Assembly (NCBI RefSeq): GCF_902150045.1
Contig: NZ_CABFVU010000002.1
Span: 1,290,001-1,354,000, forward strand
Reading direction: 5' to 3'
Length of the DNA stretch: 64,000 nucleotides
DNA from: Chitinophaga polysaccharea
GTDB taxonomy: Bacteria; Bacteroidota; Bacteroidia; Chitinophagales; Chitinophagaceae
Shown here: positions 5,354 through 16,785 of the stretch, piece after piece
How the letters are laid out: every line of letters starts with the position of its first letter
Numbering within the stretch: position 1 is the stretch's first letter
Program-made: the position numbers and the translations under genes
The notes under the pieces: generated by a model
What the model was told of the DNA's origin: nothing
Seen by the model: the letters and a program-made list of their open reading frames with translations, nothing else
Database searches by the model: none

Positions 5354-5361
5354 TACCTTTG
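5354..5361 (+). promoter_or_regulatory. Bacteroidetes -7 promoter element (TACCTTTG)
   Basis: Exact match to TAnnTTTG, 24 nt upstream of the ATG at 5386. It overlaps the TTG at 5359, which therefore cannot be the start codon because transcription would begin downstream of it. Confidence 0.7.
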
Positions 5362-5385
5362 ATACAGAAAAGAATATTCCCCTTT

Positions 5386-7722
5386 ATGCAAGCAACCATA
5401 TTGGATGTGTCAGGACATAAGGCGCAGCCACTGGCTATAGATGCAGCCATTTCCTTTGAAACGTTTATCTCTTACCTTAAACAGCGGATCAGTGAAGAAC
5501 CGACAGTGAAGGCCCGTTTATACAAAGAAGCGCTGGCAGAATTTGAGGCGTCGGATGTTGGTCACGGGGATATTCCGCTGGAAGAAATTACGCAATATAC
5601 CTCCCTGCTGGAGTACGTATATGCCTGCCTTTCCCCGGCTACACGCCCGGAGCAGCAGCTGGTATGGGGGCTCAGCTACCCCTTCCTGCCGGTTACTTTT
5701 TATGGTACAGACCTGATCTATGAATTGCTGGGAAATAAATCGGCCTCGCATACGTATGAGATAACCCATACACAGGCAGATTATCACCGGGAAAGATTAG
5801 CGCTGGTCTATTCGCTCATCCTGCAACGGCTCTATAATTTCAAGGCGCCGGTAAAAACGGAACAATATCATGAAGGGGTGAATACTGCCACCGGTTTGTT
5901 GCAGTATTACGAGGTGAGCATCAATACCGACTTTATTAAGGTAACGGCAAAAGGGGAATTGCCGGAAATCGACTTTGTACAGTTATACACATACTTCAGC
6001 GAAGGTGGTGGTGAGGAAATACTGGTGGATATGCTGCCGCTGGACCTGTTCTGTTTCCGCGGTTTTTGCGTGATCAACGTAACGGAGGTAACGGCGCAAA
6101 AAGCAGTGGAGAATATTACAGGTATGCGGTTATCACGTACCTCGCTGATCACTGAAGAGAATTATAAACAGGTGATCCTCTCGCTTAAATCGCTGGTGCG
6201 CGACAGCCGGATTGAGTTCGACCTGTTCCCTTTCCTCCGGGTGAACAATAACCCGGTATATAGTTTCGAAAAAGGAGGCACCGGCATTTTGTTTGAAGTT
6301 TGGGGAGAAAGCCGCTTGTCGCCGGAAGATTTCAGCCGGAATGCGAAAGCATTTATGTCTAAACCGCTGTTCTTTTTTTCTGAAGATATCTGGAAAGAAA
6401 CCCGTAAGGAATATGCATTCCTGGAATATTTCCGGCAGCAGGGAGTAAAGTCGCTGGCCATCATGCCTCTTTTTTACATGGGTGAACCGGTAGGCGCCTT
6501 CGCGGTGCATACCTGGAAGGATCACACATTCGACGAGAAAACATTGTCGCTCCTGGAACCCGCTTTAGACGCTGTGGCCCAGCTATTGCAGATCTATATA
6601 GATGAATTTAACGGGGAGATAGAAAAAGTGATCAAGGAGAAATTCACATCCATACAACCTGCGGTGCAATGGAAATTCAACGAAGCGGCCTGGCATTACC
6701 TGTACAGGCTGAAAAAGAACCAGCCGGCCACTATCAGCAATATCCTGTTTAAAGAAGTATACCCCCTGTATGGGGCTATTGATATCCGGAACTCTACTTT
6801 GGAAAGAAATAAGGCGATCATTGCCGACCTGGACAGCCATCTGAGCATCCTTGCCAATACGCTGGACATGCTCCGTAAGCACCAGCAGAACGACCTGCTA
6901 CGGGAAATGATCTATCATTGCCAGCGCTGGCAGCAGGCCCTGGTGCAGCAGCAGCTGAGCCCTTCGGATGAAAATGCGCTGAACAGGTTCCTGGAAGAAG
7001 AAGCGGTAAATTACCTGCAGCATATTGCCGCACAGTACCCCGCTACCCGGGAAACTATTGAAACCTGCCTGCAAAGCATGGCCGGTAATGTGAACAAGGA
7101 CTCGCTGGAAGTATCCATGCAGCTCATCACCCAAACGGCCAACGAATACCTGGAATCCGAGAAAAATAAATTGCAGGAATCCTATCCCTGCTATTTTGAA
7201 AAGTTCAGGACAGATGGAGTGGAATACGATATTTACATAGGCCAGTCAATTGCGCCGGACCGCCCCTTTAATCATTTCCACCTGAAAAATCTCCGGCTAT
7301 GGCAGCTGTCGTCAATGGTGGCCATTACAAAGCTCACCCACTCGCTGATAGCGAAGATGGAAAAGGAACTGTTCACCACGCAGCTGATCTTTGTGCATAA
7401 CCATCCTATTGATATCAGCTTCCGGGCAGATGAACGGAAATTTGATGTGGAAGGGGCTTATAATATCCGCTACCAGATGATAAAGAAGCGGATCGATAAA
7501 GTACATATCCGCAATACAGAAGAACGGTTAACCCAGCCCGATAAAATTGCCCTGATCTATTCCGACCGGGCTGATATCGAGGATTACCTGCCTTTTATCC
7601 GCTATTTACAGGAAACCGGTGTGCTGCTGCCGGAGCTGGAAGAACTGGAACTGGAAGACCTGCAGGGGCTCAGCGGCCTGAAAGCGCTGCGCCTGGGCGT
7701 TGTAGTGGAAGAGGCAGAATAA
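5386..7722 (+). CDS. GAF domain-containing protein
   Basis: A 778-residue soluble protein with no signal peptide or membrane helix. The start is set at the ATG at 5386, since the -7 promoter element at 5354-5361 excludes the upstream TTG. Residues of about 330-410 read as a GAF-like sensor domain (AIMPLFYMGEPVGAFAVHTW). A conserved-looking phrase YGAIDIRNSTLERNKAI follows near residue 462, then a long helical region. The acidic C-terminus (ELEELELEDLQGL) is unusual. GAF domains bind small ligands or act in signalling, but no output domain such as a kinase, cyclase or HTH is recognisable. It is monocistronic. Confidence 0.75.
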   Translation: MQATILDVSGHKAQPLAIDAAISFETFISYLKQRISEEPTVKARLYKEALAEFEASDVGHGDIPLEEITQYTSLLEYVYACLSPATRPEQQLVWGLSYPFLPVTFYGTDLIYELLGNKSASHTYEITHTQADYHRERLALVYSLILQRLYNFKAPVKTEQYHEGVNTATGLLQYYEVSINTDFIKVTAKGELPEIDFVQLYTYFSEGGGEEILVDMLPLDLFCFRGFCVINVTEVTAQKAVENITGMRLSRTSLITEENYKQVILSLKSLVRDSRIEFDLFPFLRVNNNPVYSFEKGGTGILFEVWGESRLSPEDFSRNAKAFMSKPLFFFSEDIWKETRKEYAFLEYFRQQGVKSLAIMPLFYMGEPVGAFAVHTWKDHTFDEKTLSLLEPALDAVAQLLQIYIDEFNGEIEKVIKEKFTSIQPAVQWKFNEAAWHYLYRLKKNQPATISNILFKEVYPLYGAIDIRNSTLERNKAIIADLDSHLSILANTLDMLRKHQQNDLLREMIYHCQRWQQALVQQQLSPSDENALNRFLEEEAVNYLQHIAAQYPATRETIETCLQSMAGNVNKDSLEVSMQLITQTANEYLESEKNKLQESYPCYFEKFRTDGVEYDIYIGQSIAPDRPFNHFHLKNLRLWQLSSMVAITKLTHSLIAKMEKELFTTQLIFVHNHPIDISFRADERKFDVEGAYNIRYQMIKKRIDKVHIRNTEERLTQPDKIALIYSDRADIEDYLPFIRYLQETGVLLPELEELELEDLQGLSGLKALRLGVVVEEAE

Positions 7723-10563: not shown

Positions 10564-12228
10564 ATGAAATACCTGAATCCCTTTGCTTTCCTGGAGAAGA
10601 TGAATGGCAGGCCTGTAGCAGCGGAGGATGCCGCTGCAGTATCCCTTCTCCGGAAAAAAATGATGGCAGAGCTGGAATTATCAGAAGAAAAGGTATTACG
10701 TGCAGGAACACAATGGCTCAGTAAAAACGACCTGCTGCATTTCTTTGATGAACTGCAAGCGCCCGCCAGGTTACATTTTTATCAACAGATCAATAACGAT
10801 ACGGTCCTGTCAGGTTTCCTGGAAACGGGTAAACTGTCAGGACTTTTTAATGATAACCCTCTTTACAACACCCCGCCATTCCTCGCTTTTATAGCGCCGT
10901 TTTATGAACCGTTATTTACCGCTGCAGTAGTGAACAGCCTTAAACAACAACTGGCGCCGCTGTTACAGCAGTTGTATGCCAACCCGCTGCTGATGGATGG
11001 CGAACATCAAAACCGGAGCTATGATAAAATATTCCGCACCCTGCAGCAATCCTATAAAATACTGGAAGATGCGGAAGCCCGCAGGAGGGCCAACCCAAAC
11101 TCCCGGTGGAGGGAAGCCTTGCCCTATGCAGGTTTACAGCAGGTACGGGTATTGAACGCCCTGCCGGATATTTTCCAGGAATTCAGGAACGATTATGGCA
11201 TCCTGATGATCAACTTTGCACTGGCGCTGGATGGTACCCGTGAAAATAAAAAAGCACTGGAAATACTTCGCGCAGTAAAAGTATTGAAATGCGGGGCTTA
11301 TGTACGGGAACAAACAGAAAGGTATTTTCAGCGCCTGGAAGAAAAAGCCATCAGCCGTAAATCCCTGCTGGCCAGGTTTTTCGGCGCCGGGTACCGGCAA
11401 AAGAAAGATCGCAGGAAACTGGTCAGGGATGCGCTTCTCAAAGGAGGAATTGCCATCGCCATTATTGCGGCTATCATTATCGGTGCTCATTTTGAACAAG
11501 CCTATACGCCCCGTATTAACGTGAGGGAAAGTGAGAACAGCATCTTTATGGGAGCCCGTACCTCGCTTGCCATGCAGTACCTGTTGTCGCAGTTACTGAT
11601 GGATACAGAGAAACGGGCGGAGAAGCTGTTAAACGGCCCTAAGCTGCCGGCGCCTGCCACGGGCACAGACCTTTACGGCGCCGATTTTATGAAGGCGGTA
11701 CGCATGCAGGGCGATTATGGGGCCGGCTTTGTACGCCCGCCTTTCGGCAGGGAAAGGAACTGGACGCCGGAAGACAGCTCCTGGACCGATCCCACGCACC
11801 GGCAAAGCCTGCGTGTTTTTAACCGGCAGGATGGCGCACTGATCACCATGGTGCAAACGCCTGATTCATTTTACTCCTGTTACATCGCTCCGTTCGACAG
11901 CGCCTTTATGCCCCTCCCTTTGTCCATCAGCCGGGTGTATTTTTACGCCGGTACAGGATGGGACCCTGAATGGAAAGCGGAATATGCCATGGATTATGTA
12001 CCATCTTATCGTGCTAAAGGATTTTTCCTGATGCCGGTTTATGATGCCCTCCATTTCCTGAAAACATCCTGCCTGCAACTGAACCTCGACAGCAGCTACT
12101 GGCAGCGCTCCAACCGCTATATACCCGTGGAAGTGTTCCTGTCGCAAAAAGATATGCTGCAGCAACAACTGCAGCTCCGGCAACTCACAAATAATTTCAA
12201 CGGGGTAGACCTGATTCCCATGGAGTAG
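10564..12228 (+). CDS. Uncharacterised single-pass membrane protein, tandem paralogue A
   Basis: I do not recognise a named family. The protein has 554 residues: a helical N-terminal part of about 285 residues without a signal peptide (MKYLNPFAFLEKMNG; then SLLRKKMMAELELSEEK), one membrane helix at about 294-312 (GGIAIAIIAAIIIGAHF), and an extracytoplasmic part of about 240 residues. It shares start, length and motifs with the next gene, including SLLRKKMxAELELS, NPLLMDGEH/NPWLLDGEH and the C-terminal FYSCYIAPFDSAF. The cytosolic side is basic next to the helix (RKLVRDALLK), consistent with N-in topology. It converges on an Hsp70/GrpE-like operon, so a role linked to that chaperone is possible but unproven. 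Confidence 0.85.
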   Translation: MKYLNPFAFLEKMNGRPVAAEDAAAVSLLRKKMMAELELSEEKVLRAGTQWLSKNDLLHFFDELQAPARLHFYQQINNDTVLSGFLETGKLSGLFNDNPLYNTPPFLAFIAPFYEPLFTAAVVNSLKQQLAPLLQQLYANPLLMDGEHQNRSYDKIFRTLQQSYKILEDAEARRRANPNSRWREALPYAGLQQVRVLNALPDIFQEFRNDYGILMINFALALDGTRENKKALEILRAVKVLKCGAYVREQTERYFQRLEEKAISRKSLLARFFGAGYRQKKDRRKLVRDALLKGGIAIAIIAAIIIGAHFEQAYTPRINVRESENSIFMGARTSLAMQYLLSQLLMDTEKRAEKLLNGPKLPAPATGTDLYGADFMKAVRMQGDYGAGFVRPPFGRERNWTPEDSSWTDPTHRQSLRVFNRQDGALITMVQTPDSFYSCYIAPFDSAFMPLPLSISRVYFYAGTGWDPEWKAEYAMDYVPSYRAKGFFLMPVYDALHFLKTSCLQLNLDSSYWQRSNRYIPVEVFLSQKDMLQQQLQLRQLTNNFNGVDLIPME

Positions 12229-12233
12229 CCGCC

Positions 12234-12283
12234 GCGGATTTTGTCTGACTCATGATTATGATGATTTTATTTTTTTGATTTTA
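12234..12283 (+). repeat. Solo arm of the gene-end palindrome family
   Basis: Five bases after the stop of paralogue A the sequence GCGGATTTTGTCTGACTCA begins, followed by ATGATTATGATGATTTTATT. The first 19 bases are the same as an arm of the long palindrome at 61518-61711. No second arm follows, so this copy looks like a degraded or half element. Confidence 0.6.
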
Positions 12284-12333
12284 TAGTATTAAAAGGGAGA
12301 TACAGGTGTTTATTTTATTTATTTTGCTTTCTT

Positions 12334-13962
12334 ATGAAATATGTGAATCCCATTATTTTCCTTGAGGCAGTACAGGGTGGGCCCGTAGATACGGGAAACA
12401 CTGCTGCGTTATCCCTTCTCCGGAAAAAAATGCTGGCAGAACTGGAACTGTCGGACGACAAACAATTCAAAACAGGTGAATGGGCATTCGATAAACACCA
12501 GCTGCTACAGTTTTTTGATCGGCTGGCCGCCGGCAAGGAACTGTTCTTTCACGCGCAGGTGGCGGCAGACCCGGTGCTGCTGCACTTCCTGGACAAGGGA
12601 GAAATCACCGGCAGGTTTTCGGATAACCCCTTGTATGAAGACCAGGCCTTCATGAATTTTATTTCTCCTTACTATGAGCCGTTATTTACCAACGCGGTGA
12701 TAGATAGCCTGAAACACAGGAAGCTGCAAGCCACTACCGATCTTTTTGCCAATCCCTGGCTGCTGGATGGGGAGCATACCACCATCAGCTACAGGCGGAT
12801 ATTCCGTTATATGCATATAGTGGAGGAACAGGTGAAAATTGTTATTGGAAAACTGAGAAATGGAGCTGTGATTTCCTGGAAGGAACTACAGGACTTTGCC
12901 AATATCACCATGGTGCAGCAATTGAATGCATTGCCTCGCGGATTCCATGAGTGGAGAAGCGACTATGGCATTTCCCTGATCAACCTGGGACTGGCCGTAT
13001 ACCGGAAAGATTTCAGAAACGGGATGGCTACGCTGGAATTGGTGAGTAAGCTGGATGCCACCACATATGTGCAGGAGGAGAAAGAACGATGGAAAGCGAA
13101 GATGAACGAGTATAAGAAGAAAATGAAACTGGCGCAGAGGATAGGGTATTGGCTAGGCCCGCTGAAACCAAAGATGCTTAGTGAAGAGGGAACCGGTTCA
13201 CTGGTGCTCATAGTATCGGCTGTTCTCTTGTCCCGCCTTTTCTTTTCATTAATAGAAACGAAATCACCACGCCCGGAAATAGTTACCAGCTTCGATTATT
13301 TTACGAATATCCGCACTTATGAGCCGGTAAAATATCTTTTATATCACCTGCAAACTGATTCAATATATCCTTTGAATAAGAAGGACACCAGCAAACCGCT
13401 GGTAACCGGAGATGATGTGTACGGCCCTGATCTTATGGCGGCATTAGAAAAACCTTTGCGTAAAACCAACGATACGGCCATACTGAAGATGGCGAAGGAA
13501 GGTCTGAATGCCAGCCACGCATCACCTAAAGGAAATCCGGCCCACCGGCAAAGCCTGCATCTCTACAATCGTTTAATAGTGCCTGCTATAGCTATGATCC
13601 AGACACCGGATACTTTTTATTCCTGTTACATTTCGCCGGGCGATAGCGCTTTTGTGCCGTTGCAGCTTGCGGTGAACCGGTTGTATGTGTATGTTGGCGA
13701 ACATTGGGATGGTACAAAAGAAGCGCAATATGCAATGGATGATGTGCGTGGATACAGGGTGAAAGGTTTTTTCCTTATGTCTTATAAAAACTCCAAACAA
13801 TTCCTGAAAGAGAACAGCCTCATATTCAAGCTGGACCCCATGTACTGGGCAACCTCCGACCGGAATATTCCTGTCGAGATCGGGTTATCTGATGATACTT
13901 ACCTGCACTTCAACCTGCTGGAAAATAATGCAGCAGGAGTGGAGCTGGAAATAGGCGATTAG
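12334..13962 (+). CDS. Uncharacterised single-pass membrane protein, tandem paralogue B
   Basis: A 542-residue paralogue of the preceding gene, also of unknown function. Order of parts: N-terminal helical cytosolic region (MKYVNPIIFLEAVQGG; SLLRKKMLAELELSDDK), basic juxtamembrane stretch, one membrane helix at about 289-305 (LVLIVSAVLLSRLFFSL), then an extracytoplasmic region with FYSCYISPGDSAF and YRVKGFFLM. The shared C-terminal motifs suggest selection on the outer domain. Its stop codon overlaps the end of the convergent Hsp70 gene by 4 bp, an unusually tight junction. The two copies lie 105 bp apart and could be transcribed separately. Confidence 0.85.
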   Translation: MKYVNPIIFLEAVQGGPVDTGNTAALSLLRKKMLAELELSDDKQFKTGEWAFDKHQLLQFFDRLAAGKELFFHAQVAADPVLLHFLDKGEITGRFSDNPLYEDQAFMNFISPYYEPLFTNAVIDSLKHRKLQATTDLFANPWLLDGEHTTISYRRIFRYMHIVEEQVKIVIGKLRNGAVISWKELQDFANITMVQQLNALPRGFHEWRSDYGISLINLGLAVYRKDFRNGMATLELVSKLDATTYVQEEKERWKAKMNEYKKKMKLAQRIGYWLGPLKPKMLSEEGTGSLVLIVSAVLLSRLFFSLIETKSPRPEIVTSFDYFTNIRTYEPVKYLLYHLQTDSIYPLNKKDTSKPLVTGDDVYGPDLMAALEKPLRKTNDTAILKMAKEGLNASHASPKGNPAHRQSLHLYNRLIVPAIAMIQTPDTFYSCYISPGDSAFVPLQLAVNRLYVYVGEHWDGTKEAQYAMDDVRGYRVKGFFLMSYKNSKQFLKENSLIFKLDPMYWATSDRNIPVEIGLSDDTYLHFNLLENNAAGVELEIGD

Positions 13963-16457
13963 CCGATACCTGTTCCTTTTAGCTGGTCTCTTTCCTTTTT
14001 CGTATCCGGCATCAGGTTGTACAGTTGGTTGACCGCCACTTTCAGTTCATCATAATTTTTCCGTTCCAGTGCGCGCTCGCCGATTTCCTTAAAGCGCGCA
14101 GCTGTTTGAGGATCTGTATATTCTTCTGTATTTACATTAGCGTAATAGTAATAGGCGTTGATCCAGGTTTCGGGTTTGTTGCGTCTTATTTCCCAGCTCA
14201 GGTCATTCAGCTCATCAATTTTTGCTTTAATGGCGTAGTAACTTTGTGAAGATAAATAGGCGCTTTCATCTGCGATGATCTTTTCAAAACGGGGCATGCG
14301 GCTGCTGTCTTCTTCTTCCCGGATATTATACAGGCAATATTCTTTCCGCTGAAAATACAGCTCGGTAATTTCCACGATCAGCTGGTCTTTCCCGGTACTG
14401 TCAAGCTGTTGTGCCAGTTTACGTTTCTTTTCTTCCAGCTGGTATTTTTCATCGGTGATATCATCATCGCTGAGCAGTTCCAGGCGGCTGCTGATATGAT
14501 CAAGATCCGTCATGATCTCCTGCACAGTGGCAGCCAGTTCGTATTGCTGGTTTTTGCGGAATGATTTTATTTTTTCAGATGCGTTCAAACGGAGCTGCCG
14601 GATATCATCCAGCAGTTTGCCGGTATTGATTTTCCTTACCATGGGGTTAAACACTTCGGAAAATTCCTGTTCATTCATGAGCAGCACCGCTTTCACGGAA
14701 AGGTCCCTGCTTTCGCTGATCTGCAGGGTGATTTCCACATCGGAGCCTTTTACAAGATCGGTAATGAGGTCGGTGCTTTTTATTTCTATCATGCCCAGCG
14801 GAACGCAGCTGCCGGGAATTGCATACCTGCTGCCTTCCAGTACGTTGATCAGGAGGCTGTCGCGGCCACTGCGCAGGATGGTTTTCATCACTTCCTTGAT
14901 GATGGTTTTCCGTAATGGCAGGATGGCATTCTTTTCAAAGATGAGCTCCAGTTTGGTGGCATTGTTTTCCAGGTCGTCTATTTCTATGCAGATATCGTTG
15001 GGCAGTGGCTGGCCATGAATATTAAATTTACCCTGTGAAATGGCGATCACCGGGGCTTGTACATCCAGCTCGTTGTGGGCGGCATCGAATACGAGTATGT
15101 TGAAAGTGTTACTGGCATTTTCCGCCAGCAGCAGCATTTCGGAAATGCGTTCCTGCAGGGGCTTGATGCCGCTGTCGTAGCCGCCGTCGGCGCGTACAAT
15201 GCGGTAGCTGAGCCCTGTAACGGGGCCGGTTACAATAGCGGTGAAATATTCTTCCCTGTCGGCGGTATTTTTCTGGTAGGCTGTTTTAAACCGGATGTTT
15301 GGCACGCCGGGGACCAATGGTTTATTCCCTGTTTGCTGCGGCTCACTAATGGTTTTGGTGCCTGCATACCAGGCGGCGCCTATGGCTACAGCAGTGGTAG
15401 GATCTACGCTGCAGTTCACCGCTATGTCCAGCTGTGAGGCCACCAGGTTTTTCACCAGCGGTATATAGGTGCTTCCGCCAATCATCACTATTTCTTTGAT
15501 ATCGGCGGCAGTAAGGTGATTGCGGTCGATGATCTTTTTTACAAGATCAACGGAGTATTGTATGCGGTTGTAGATCACCGTGTCAAATTGTTCACGGGTA
15601 ATGGTGAGATAGATATCCTGCGTATCGCCGCTGGCATCCGTCAGCTCAAATTCTATTTCAGCAGAAGGACCGTTAGTGAGTTGCACTTTGGCCTCTTCTG
15701 CTTTTTTCAGCAGGATATGATACAGGGTATTGTATTTTCCACGTGCGCTGCGCATTTCCGTGAGCAGGTCGGGGATAGCGTGCTGCTGCAGCAAAGCGGG
15801 TATCACCAGCTGTTCAATGATAGCAATATCAAAGTCGACCCCGCCAAGATAATTATCTCCTTCATGATCGGTAACACGCATTTCGCCATCTACAATTTTT
15901 ACCAGCGCCACATCGAAGGTACCTCCGCCAAGATCGTATACCAGCCACTGCCCCTGCAGGGAAGTGGCATTGGCCTGTTTGTTGGCAAAAGCCAGGCTGG
16001 CGGCAATGGGTTCCTGCAGCAGTAATACTTCGCGGAATCCTGCATCGTTGCCGGCTTTTTTGGTGGCATTGGACTGTATAGTATCAAAAGAGGCAGGGAT
16101 GGTAATAACCACTGCTTCCGGTTTTTCGCCGGTATAAATAAAGTTCTTCAGCTCGCGGAGCACCAGGGCCGACAGCTCTACCGGTGTTTTAAAATCGCTG
16201 GTATTGGGCACAAAGAAAGATTCCGAGGTGCCCATTTTTCTTTTGAAGGAAGAGAACACATTTTCAGGGTCTTTCTCTATCAGCTCACGGGCTTTGTCGC
16301 CCACAATGATCCGGTCTTTCCGGAAAGCTACTACCGAAGGCAGCGTTTCTTTCTGGCCGAACGGGTTTTTGAAAATTTCCACGGCGCCGTTCTGGAACCG
16401 TGCGATCAGGGAATTGGTAGTGCCGAGGTCAATACCGAAATTAATCTGGTTGCTCAT
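13959..16457 (-). CDS. Hsp70 family protein, enlarged DnaK-like chaperone
   Basis: An 832-residue Hsp70, about 190 longer than typical DnaK. The nucleotide-binding domain spans about residues 1-380, with the phosphate-1 motif GIDLGTTNS at 8-16, phosphate-2 YDLGGGTFD at 174-182 and the adenosine motif VMIGGSTYIPLV near 330. After residue 390 the sequence departs from DnaK: a divergent substrate-binding region, then a long charged, probably helical tail. It lacks the EEVD-like or glycine-rich tail of standard DnaK. The gene follows the GrpE-like gene by 4 bp on the same strand and is clearly co-transcribed. No J-domain protein is nearby. It probably acts as a specialised Hsp70 rather than the housekeeping DnaK. 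Confidence 0.92.
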   Translation of the reverse strand: MSNQINFGIDLGTTNSLIARFQNGAVEIFKNPFGQKETLPSVVAFRKDRIIVGDKARELIEKDPENVFSSFKRKMGTSESFFVPNTSDFKTPVELSALVLRELKNFIYTGEKPEAVVITIPASFDTIQSNATKKAGNDAGFREVLLLQEPIAASLAFANKQANATSLQGQWLVYDLGGGTFDVALVKIVDGEMRVTDHEGDNYLGGVDFDIAIIEQLVIPALLQQHAIPDLLTEMRSARGKYNTLYHILLKKAEEAKVQLTNGPSAEIEFELTDASGDTQDIYLTITREQFDTVIYNRIQYSVDLVKKIIDRNHLTAADIKEIVMIGGSTYIPLVKNLVASQLDIAVNCSVDPTTAVAIGAAWYAGTKTISEPQQTGNKPLVPGVPNIRFKTAYQKNTADREEYFTAIVTGPVTGLSYRIVRADGGYDSGIKPLQERISEMLLLAENASNTFNILVFDAAHNELDVQAPVIAISQGKFNIHGQPLPNDICIEIDDLENNATKLELIFEKNAILPLRKTIIKEVMKTILRSGRDSLLINVLEGSRYAIPGSCVPLGMIEIKSTDLITDLVKGSDVEITLQISESRDLSVKAVLLMNEQEFSEVFNPMVRKINTGKLLDDIRQLRLNASEKIKSFRKNQQYELAATVQEIMTDLDHISSRLELLSDDDITDEKYQLEEKKRKLAQQLDSTGKDQLIVEITELYFQRKEYCLYNIREEEDSSRMPRFEKIIADESAYLSSQSYYAIKAKIDELNDLSWEIRRNKPETWINAYYYYANVNTEEYTDPQTAARFKEIGERALERKNYDELKVAVNQLYNLMPDTKKERDQLKGTGIG

Positions 16458-16461
16458 AGGT

Positions 16462-16785
16462 TTATTTTGCGGCAGCGATGACTACACCTTTTTGTAAAAT
16501 GGATTTTTGTCCTCCCGCTGTATAGTACACCACTGGTTTGATCACGTTTACGATTTCCATATCGGCCGACATTTCACCGGTGATACTCGCCTCATAATCC
16601 ACCCGCGTTTCCCGGTAAGGCTCTCCCAGCGGGTTCACGATGGTATAGCCGGCTTCCTCAAAATGTTGTTTGATACGGTCTATATTACGTTGGAGGGACA
16701 ACAACTCCGGTTTGGCAGTTGTTTTTTTATCCAGTTCAAAAACCTGGTTGATGATCCGGATGTGAAGGGTCGATAACGGGTCCAT
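16462..16785 (-). CDS. GrpE-like mini-protein (putative nucleotide exchange factor for adjacent Hsp70)
   Basis: A 107-residue protein that reads like the end of GrpE. A short helix (about residues 20-45, LSLQRNIDRIKQHFEEAGY) leads into a beta-wing-like segment, VNPLGEPYRETRVDYEASI, and ends with IVNVIKPVVYYTAGGQKSIL plus QKGVVIAAAK. GrpE wings have the pattern DP.GEPFDP..HEA, a V-rich strand, then KGY...R...VVVA, which this matches in order. The long N-terminal coiled coil of standard GrpE is missing. It starts the operon and sits 4 bp before the Hsp70 gene. The assignment is by pattern and context, not alignment. Confidence 0.7.
   Translation of the reverse strand: MDPLSTLHIRIINQVFELDKKTTAKPELLSLQRNIDRIKQHFEEAGYTIVNPLGEPYRETRVDYEASITGEMSADMEIVNVIKPVVYYTAGGQKSILQKGVVIAAAK

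Follow-up and report, generated by a model that had tools for sequence, protein, structure and literature searches.

How does a bacterial Hsp70 work when no J-protein is encoded beside it? The question is raised by a four-gene locus of Chitinophaga polysaccharea, which lies in a stretch of 64,000 nucleotides (contig NZ_CABFVU010000002.1, positions 1,290,001 to 1,354,000; hereafter the window, with positions counted from its first letter). An oversized Hsp70 and a small GrpE-like protein are encoded there opposite two membrane proteins, memA and memB, whose family we call F1. An earlier note had proposed, from adjacency alone, that the four form a candidate Hsp70 system. We find that the conserved cassette consists of an Hsp70 with an intact ATPase site, a rebuilt J-contact surface and an extra domain, together with a truncated GrpE-like protein and one to five F1 proteins. 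On the sequence comparisons below, the "missing J-protein" should be recast as an apparent paired loss of the contact between the HPD motif of J-proteins and an arginine of Hsp70.

The four-gene arrangement is confirmed as real and not a product of chance. All open reading frames (ORFs) lie exactly where the earlier note had read them, with the F1 genes as tandem paralogues (39% identity across 554 columns), a tail-to-tail overlap of 4 bp (13959–13962) between the Hsp70 gene and the second membrane gene, and the 107-residue gene stopping 4 bp upstream of the Hsp70 start. The host genome (7.6 Mb) also holds a canonical DnaK, one ordinary GrpE and three J-domain proteins, so that the four-gene set is an extra, specialised one.

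Conservation of the cassette was followed in 117 Chitinophagaceae genomes, in 395 genomes of the class, and in a set of loci. A scan of one genome per species for the Hsp70 middle region gave 229 relatives, the best 80 of which were fetched as loci; with the window this makes 81 loci, some of them from closely related Chitinophaga (loci and genomes are cited by L and G numbers). The window's genome is close to those of Chitinophaga ginsengisegetis and C. arvensicola, with 95% identity along a 216-aa query. Of the 117 Chitinophagaceae genomes, 14 have the long Hsp70 in its close form, full-length in 12 (42–54% identity), truncated at a contig end in G107 and split into two matches in G031; the same 14 have the small protein. 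A single-sequence search placed F1 in 12 of these and in no other of the 117, and inspection of the loci revealed an F1 gene adjoining the Hsp70 in the remaining two (G001, locus L073; G032, locus L076). G040 has a more distant Hsp70 of the same kind.

At the level of loci, the small gene is present in 77 of 81, always on the Hsp70 strand, and three of the four loci without it have less than 200 bp of sequence before the Hsp70. F1 is present in 68 loci (one copy in 51, two in 14, three in 2 and five in 1); in 8 of the 13 loci without it, the available sequence stops no more than 450 bp from the Hsp70 on one side. No other gene family occurs in more than 8 of the 81 loci. The nearest F1 gene is downstream on the opposite strand, that is tail-to-tail, in 31 cases, downstream on the same strand in 21, upstream on the same strand in 10 and upstream on the opposite strand in 6. 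Tail-to-tail placement was dropped as evidence because other orientations are common.

The cassette family extends beyond Chitinophagaceae. The class survey found F1 in 21 genomes, the Hsp70 in 25 and the small protein in 21. An Hsp70 is present in 17 of the 21 F1 genomes, compared with 1.3 expected (G582 is a weak match on both sides). Both genes are also found together when they are unlinked, about 1.7 Mb apart in G695, 2.2 Mb apart in G796 and on separate contigs in G519, G591 and G778, which adjacency does not explain. The proposal of a system, which the earlier note thought would fail if the membrane proteins were widespread without the Hsp70, thus gains the backing of both locus and genome counts, with two clear exceptions given below. 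Of the other F1 genomes without the Hsp70, G636 has a weak match and G829 is a 1,670-contig assembly that does have the small protein. Conversely, 8 of the 25 Hsp70 genomes have no detected F1, yet G201 carries F1 next door (L083) and G592 a distant F1 (E 6e-7, L229); five of the 25 have no small protein, of which G592 and G611 carry its domain next door in a longer protein. The counts refute chance adjacency of an unrelated membrane pair, and we give it next to no credence. Opposite strands for the F1 and Hsp70 genes, as in the window, would suit it, but the two share a strand in 31 of the 68 loci, and F1, the small gene and the Hsp70 stand in one run at, for example, L202, L204 and L213.

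PF00012 matches the Hsp70 with 232.3 bits (cut-off 20.6; best stretch residues 7–367), while its scores fall far under the HscA and DnaK model cut-offs. For comparison with E. coli DnaK, whose numbering is used for single residues, an initial alignment of 68 of the 76 complete sequences from the fetched loci and the window was made, and residues were tallied on all 76. The catalytic residues D8, K70, P143, E171, T199 and D201 are retained in 76/76. The position of R167 is Arg in none (Val 39, Leu 17, Phe 8, Thr 4, Ile 4, Gln 2, Ala 1, Tyr 1), and that of Q378 is Gln in none and Tyr or Phe in all 76. N170 and T173, which we take to be part of the J-domain contact, are replaced by Gln and by Ile or Val, respectively, in every sequence; E217 has become Lys or Arg, and D326 Arg, each in 70 of the 76. 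R167, N170 and Q378 are retained in E. coli DnaK, HscA and HscC and in 16 DnaK/HscA-type sequences from the same bacterial family.

The passages of PMC8215388 that deal with the interface describe D35 of the HPD motif as bonding R167 and Q378, H33 as bonding the linker, and E206, D211 and E217 as J-domain contacts; they also state that J-domains with a changed H or D in HPD no longer stimulated Hsp70 in any of the systems tested. DnaJ D35N is suppressed by DnaK R167H, as cited in a passage of PMC5519331. The Hsp70 of the cassette is itself without the residues that read HPD. R167 and D326 also belong to the clamp between the nucleotide-binding and substrate-binding domains (same passages of PMC8215388), so the changes may reflect altered allostery as well.

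Beyond the ATPase domain there is no LLLD-type linker; the alignments place about 110 residues there instead, including a conserved domain (372–482). A profile of residues 390–605 found no relevant match among PDB sequences. A substrate-binding beta domain (501–598) aligns with that of DnaK in hhalign (P 7.4e-5, probability 62%, 90 columns), and the long C-terminal region (605–832) gave no clear match to the DnaK lid (P 0.09). Some loci vary on this plan. At L080 (10358–12454) and L230 (5795–8251), the Hsp70 gene has another Hsp70-like gene in tandem behind it, with Tyr as the D8 equivalent in both; the L080 gene is also without K70, T199 and D201. Such genes could encode a pseudo-ATPase partner. 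At L152 (190–2700) the Hsp70 reading frame is split in two. A related gene of about 170 codons begins at the Hsp70 end in L170 (9302–9817), L173 (8160–8726), L194 (5104–5610) and L213 (5297–5824); it looks TerB-like by eye and is a possible fourth part of that subtype.

Structures were predicted for memA and for the small protein. The memA model begins with helices at residues 6–14 and 23–39, a hairpin at 45–52 and helices at 54–65 and 67–78, an order compatible with that of a J-domain, with the hairpin in the place of the HPD loop. A profile of F1 N-terminal domains (67 of 90 proteins aligned) matched a profile of 29 J-domains in hhalign with P 9.7e-4. The match covers helices I–II and ends at the position of HPD, where F1 commonly has an ELS-like motif, and its score was reached by 0/200 column shuffles and 0/28 decoy windows; a narrow J profile gave a weaker match (P 0.0056) than this broader one. 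The letters HPD occur in 3 of 109 F1 N-termini (L072, L073 and the duplicate L207), at residues 60–62, the end of the third helix. The four genes indeed encode no ordinary HPD-type J-domain, as the earlier note had stated, but it passed over a conserved N-terminal domain with weak J similarity.

Support for this similarity comes from sister cassettes. A tblastn search of plasmids found a trio in Pseudomonas hygromyciniae, comprising a 706-aa fusion of TPR repeats with F1 (F1 E 1e-38), a 117-aa small protein (2e-33) and an 833-aa Hsp70 that is 44% identical to the window's. The carrier is a conjugative plasmid (L245:4522–9502). More distant sets occur in Sinorhizobium, Aminobacter, Polaromonas, Shewanella, Vibrio and Aeromonas, where a small gene of 114–123 residues precedes the Hsp70. 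Only the Vibrio gene clearly matches the window family (2e-5); for Shewanella (0.0075), Polaromonas (0.036), Aminobacter (0.065) and Sinorhizobium (1.6) the match is faint or missing. The F1 profile had no clear match among the larger proteins scanned from the distant sets. A divergent Bacteroidota set includes a CFI-box protein. Across 19 aligned variant Hsp70s, R167 and Q378 are absent in 19/19.

The putative partners in these variants start differently, either with "NPYR" and a CFI-box (type B, its profile built from four sequences only) or with "NPFvvL" (type C); a type C query found five plasmids, all five of which also carry the Hsp70. Types B and C align with J-domains in the same register as F1 (P 0.004 and 9.6e-4; 200 shuffles scored lower in each case), again with no HPD at the J-aligned position. 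Among themselves the families show little similarity (C against B, P 0.035 over 16 columns; C against F1, P 0.007 over 13 columns). The convergence of three partner families on one J register is our best argument for a J origin, although each match alone is weak. Our likeliest reading of the F1 N-terminal domain, and the least certain step of the account, is a J-domain that decayed and evolved jointly with the Hsp70 once the HPD-arginine contact had been lost.

The plasmid versions adjoin ZorA, BREX genes, a restriction endonuclease and Tn7-like or integrase genes, surroundings that would fit a role in phage or plasmid defence, with the Hsp70 as sensor or motor and F1-type proteins recognising the invader or wrecking the membrane. 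We regard this as improbable: PADLOC matched none of five window proteins and none of 7 of 9 plasmid proteins, the two matches being neighbouring ATPases, and carriage on plasmids biases what is seen. A Haliscomenobacter plasmid (L246:4366–16292) encodes a CFI-box protein, a GrpE-ended protein, an Hsp70, an AAA ATPase and a TerB-family gene beside BREX brxL and pglZ.

The architecture of F1 was examined in 89 proteins, out of 90 usable ones in the window and the fetched loci. Conservation between species lies mainly in the N-terminal 260–270 residues, the remainder being absent or variable. One or two hydrophobic helices follow residue 200 in 75 of the 89; memA and memB each have one strong hydrophobic segment, in agreement with the single membrane helix read earlier. 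Of 70 single-helix proteins, 19 stop no more than 30 residues after the helix, which gives them the look of tail-anchored proteins; in 40 the part after the helix exceeds 100 residues. Lys and Arg are more frequent before the helix in 29 of 53 proteins, equal in 12 and opposite in 12, which modestly favours a cytosolic N-terminus. Scans with Pfam, NCBIfam and PADLOC gave no match for the window's membrane proteins, and the F1 profile no relevant match among PDB sequences. The helical part of the memA model (127–273) resembles many helical repeats and is uninformative; its C-terminal part (residues 415–552, window 11806–12219) is beta-rich. With the whole model as query, the Foldseek matches listed include outer domains of peptide transporters as well as thaumatins, at probabilities of at most 0.80; these matches are weak and were given without the range of the model concerned. 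The family is also expanded in places, with five copies in tandem at L198 (6774–13562) and six F1 places to one Hsp70 in genome G666.

One could ask whether F1 proteins are dedicated clients or a scaffold: the Hsp70 and GrpE-like pair would fold, insert or export them or have them as its membrane tether, and either substrate alone or the cell's ordinary J-proteins would set off hydrolysis. Their variable outer parts would suit cargo, the genome holds three ordinary J-proteins, and neither HPD at the aligned position nor Pfam DnaJ among the matches listed was found in F1. What is conserved, nonetheless, is the cytosolic N-terminal domain and not the outer part, of which 19 of the 70 single-helix proteins have next to nothing, and the Hsp70 is without the residues used by ordinary HPD J-proteins. 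We consider this alternative unlikely, if far from fanciful.

The small protein has a predicted GrpE-like fold of helices and a beta wing. Residues 1–107 of the model align with E. coli GrpE 85–195 only, and the long N-terminal paired helix is absent. No Pfam, NCBIfam or PADLOC family scored above cut-off for the window protein, Pfam GrpE was not among the matches listed for 75 members (25 of 46 families listed), and the profile had no relevant match among PDB sequences. Against a GrpE profile, the match had P 0.0026 and became slightly weaker (P 0.0049) once E. coli GrpE and further relatives were included, and the observed score of 21.9 barely exceeds the best of 200 shuffles (21.5), so the assignment rests on the fold. 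A GrpE match at L229 (E 1e-6) was not used, as it sits in a coiled coil. The model thus points to a truncated GrpE-like protein with an inferred role in nucleotide exchange. We know of no smaller GrpE than one of 107 residues, and so short a protein would help to delimit the minimal needs of a nucleotide exchange factor.

Taken together, these results make it reasonably probable that the cassette is a dedicated Hsp70 machine operating on the inner side of the cytoplasmic membrane. The F1 N-terminal domain would dock the ATP-bound Hsp70 at the membrane and pass clients to it, doing the job of a J-protein without HPD, with a trigger contact that no longer runs through HPD and Arg167. Hydrolysis would lock the Hsp70 onto its client, the GrpE-like wing would eject ADP and reset it, and F1 paralogues, two in the window, could steer one Hsp70 to different membrane clients. 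More tentatively, and somewhat less likely than not, the cassettes of Bacteroidota and of Pseudomonadota plasmids may represent a separate Hsp70 lineage, in which the supposedly universal HPD-arginine contact was lost on both sides together. An HPD-blind Hsp70 would then work with a minimal GrpE and with J-like membrane proteins that have no HPD, as a machine insulated from the DnaK/DnaJ network.

Several observations weigh against this account. F1 was not found at L140, L143, L166, L174 and L175 despite 7 kb of downstream sequence, F1 is clearly without this Hsp70 in G118 and G849, and no small protein was found in G561, G678 and G724, by genome search or beside the Hsp70. A helix is missing at threshold from 14 of 89 F1 proteins, and the charge bias for a cytosolic N-terminus is modest. 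The J similarity has an hhalign probability of 22% for F1 (8% for type B, 22% for type C) over about 35 columns, with no HPD at the aligned position in F1. Pfam DnaJ was absent among the matches listed for 67 F1 N-domains (25 of 38 families, E up to 10), and no J-protein stood among the 50 Foldseek/VIA matches listed for the whole memA model, which hardly tested residues 1–90. Finally, loss of R167 may mean altered allostery instead of a changed J partner.

Features of the locus and their positions in the window.
Feature	Position	Strand	Basis
Membrane protein A (memA, F1 family), 554 aa	10564..12228	+	ORF; AlphaFold 2 (AF2) mean pLDDT 89.6, pTM 0.57
Membrane protein B (memB, F1 family), 542 aa, paralogue of A	12334..13962	+	ORF; 39% identity
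Hsp70 without HPD-reading residues, 832 aa	13959..16457	-	PF00012 E 1.2e-68
GrpE-like protein, 107 aa; two helices and six-strand wing, no long N-terminal helix	16462..16785	-	
A: F1 N-terminal domain (residues 1-90), HPD-less J-like candidate	10564..10833	+	Model, hhalign against J profile
A: predicted membrane helix (residues 290-308)	11431..11487	+	Hydropathy
B: F1 N-terminal domain (residues 1-90)	12334..12603	+	Alignment
B: predicted membrane helix (residues 289-307)	13198..13254	+	Hydropathy
Hsp70 nucleotide-binding domain (residues 7-367); R167 equivalent is Leu145	15357..16439	-	PF00012, residue alignments
Hsp70 linker and extra conserved domain, about 110 residues (372-482), between ATPase and substrate domains	15012..15344	-	Alignments
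Hsp70 substrate-binding beta domain (residues 501-598)	14664..14957	-	hhalign to DnaK substrate-binding beta domain
Hsp70 C-terminal region (605-832)	13962..14645	-	hhalign to DnaK lid P 0.09, no clear match

Elsewhere in the window, positions 5359–7722 encode a protein of 787 aa, in which a GAF-like stretch (PF01590, 22.7 bits, cut-off 22.4) is the sole family match above cut-off.

No description of the cassette was found in open-licence PMC literature listings, which is weak evidence of absence. If our account is true, a widespread natural Hsp70 without the reading residues, paired with motif-less partners, would show how Hsp70 activation gets rewired, would offer an orthogonal chaperone pair for study, and would give a function to groups of "hypothetical proteins" adjoining "Hsp70 family protein" genes.

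Among known systems, the nearest in layout is HscC with DjlB and DjlC of E. coli: there too a specialised Hsp70 has two paralogous partners anchored in the membrane, and on the chromosome djlC lies tail-to-tail with hscC. That the cassette is in essence such a system in another phylum is nevertheless very unlikely. HscC (556 aa) retains R167, N170, Q378, E217 and D326, and DjlB and DjlC retain HPE, for which reason the window cassette is not placed in the HscC family; the window Hsp70, at about 830 residues and far under the HscA and DnaK cut-offs, has its own GrpE-like protein, whereas no grpE lies within 10 kb around hscC. In the E. coli locus inspected (L215:1416–5664), DjlB and DjlC read HPE, not HPD, and HscC keeps R167. 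Pam16 (Tim16) is a J-like protein without HPD; its partners are Pam18, a true J-protein, and an HPD-reading Hsp70. Its HPD-less J-like domain is likewise tied to a membrane, but the window cassette holds no HPD partner and its Hsp70 is altered. CnuD of the CoCoNuT systems shares with the cassette the occurrence of Hsp70-like proteins in uncharacterised bacterial gene clusters; as portrayed in PMC11090510, it is fused or tied to McrBC-like GTPases and has degenerate ATP motifs, and GrpE and DnaJ are not mentioned in the main text of that paper; membership was considered and dropped. With DnaK-DnaJ-GrpE the cassette shares an ATPase site, a substrate beta domain and a GrpE-fold partner, and it differs from that system in that about 110 residues replace the linker, the HPD-reading residues are lost, GrpE is shortened and the partner is without HPD.
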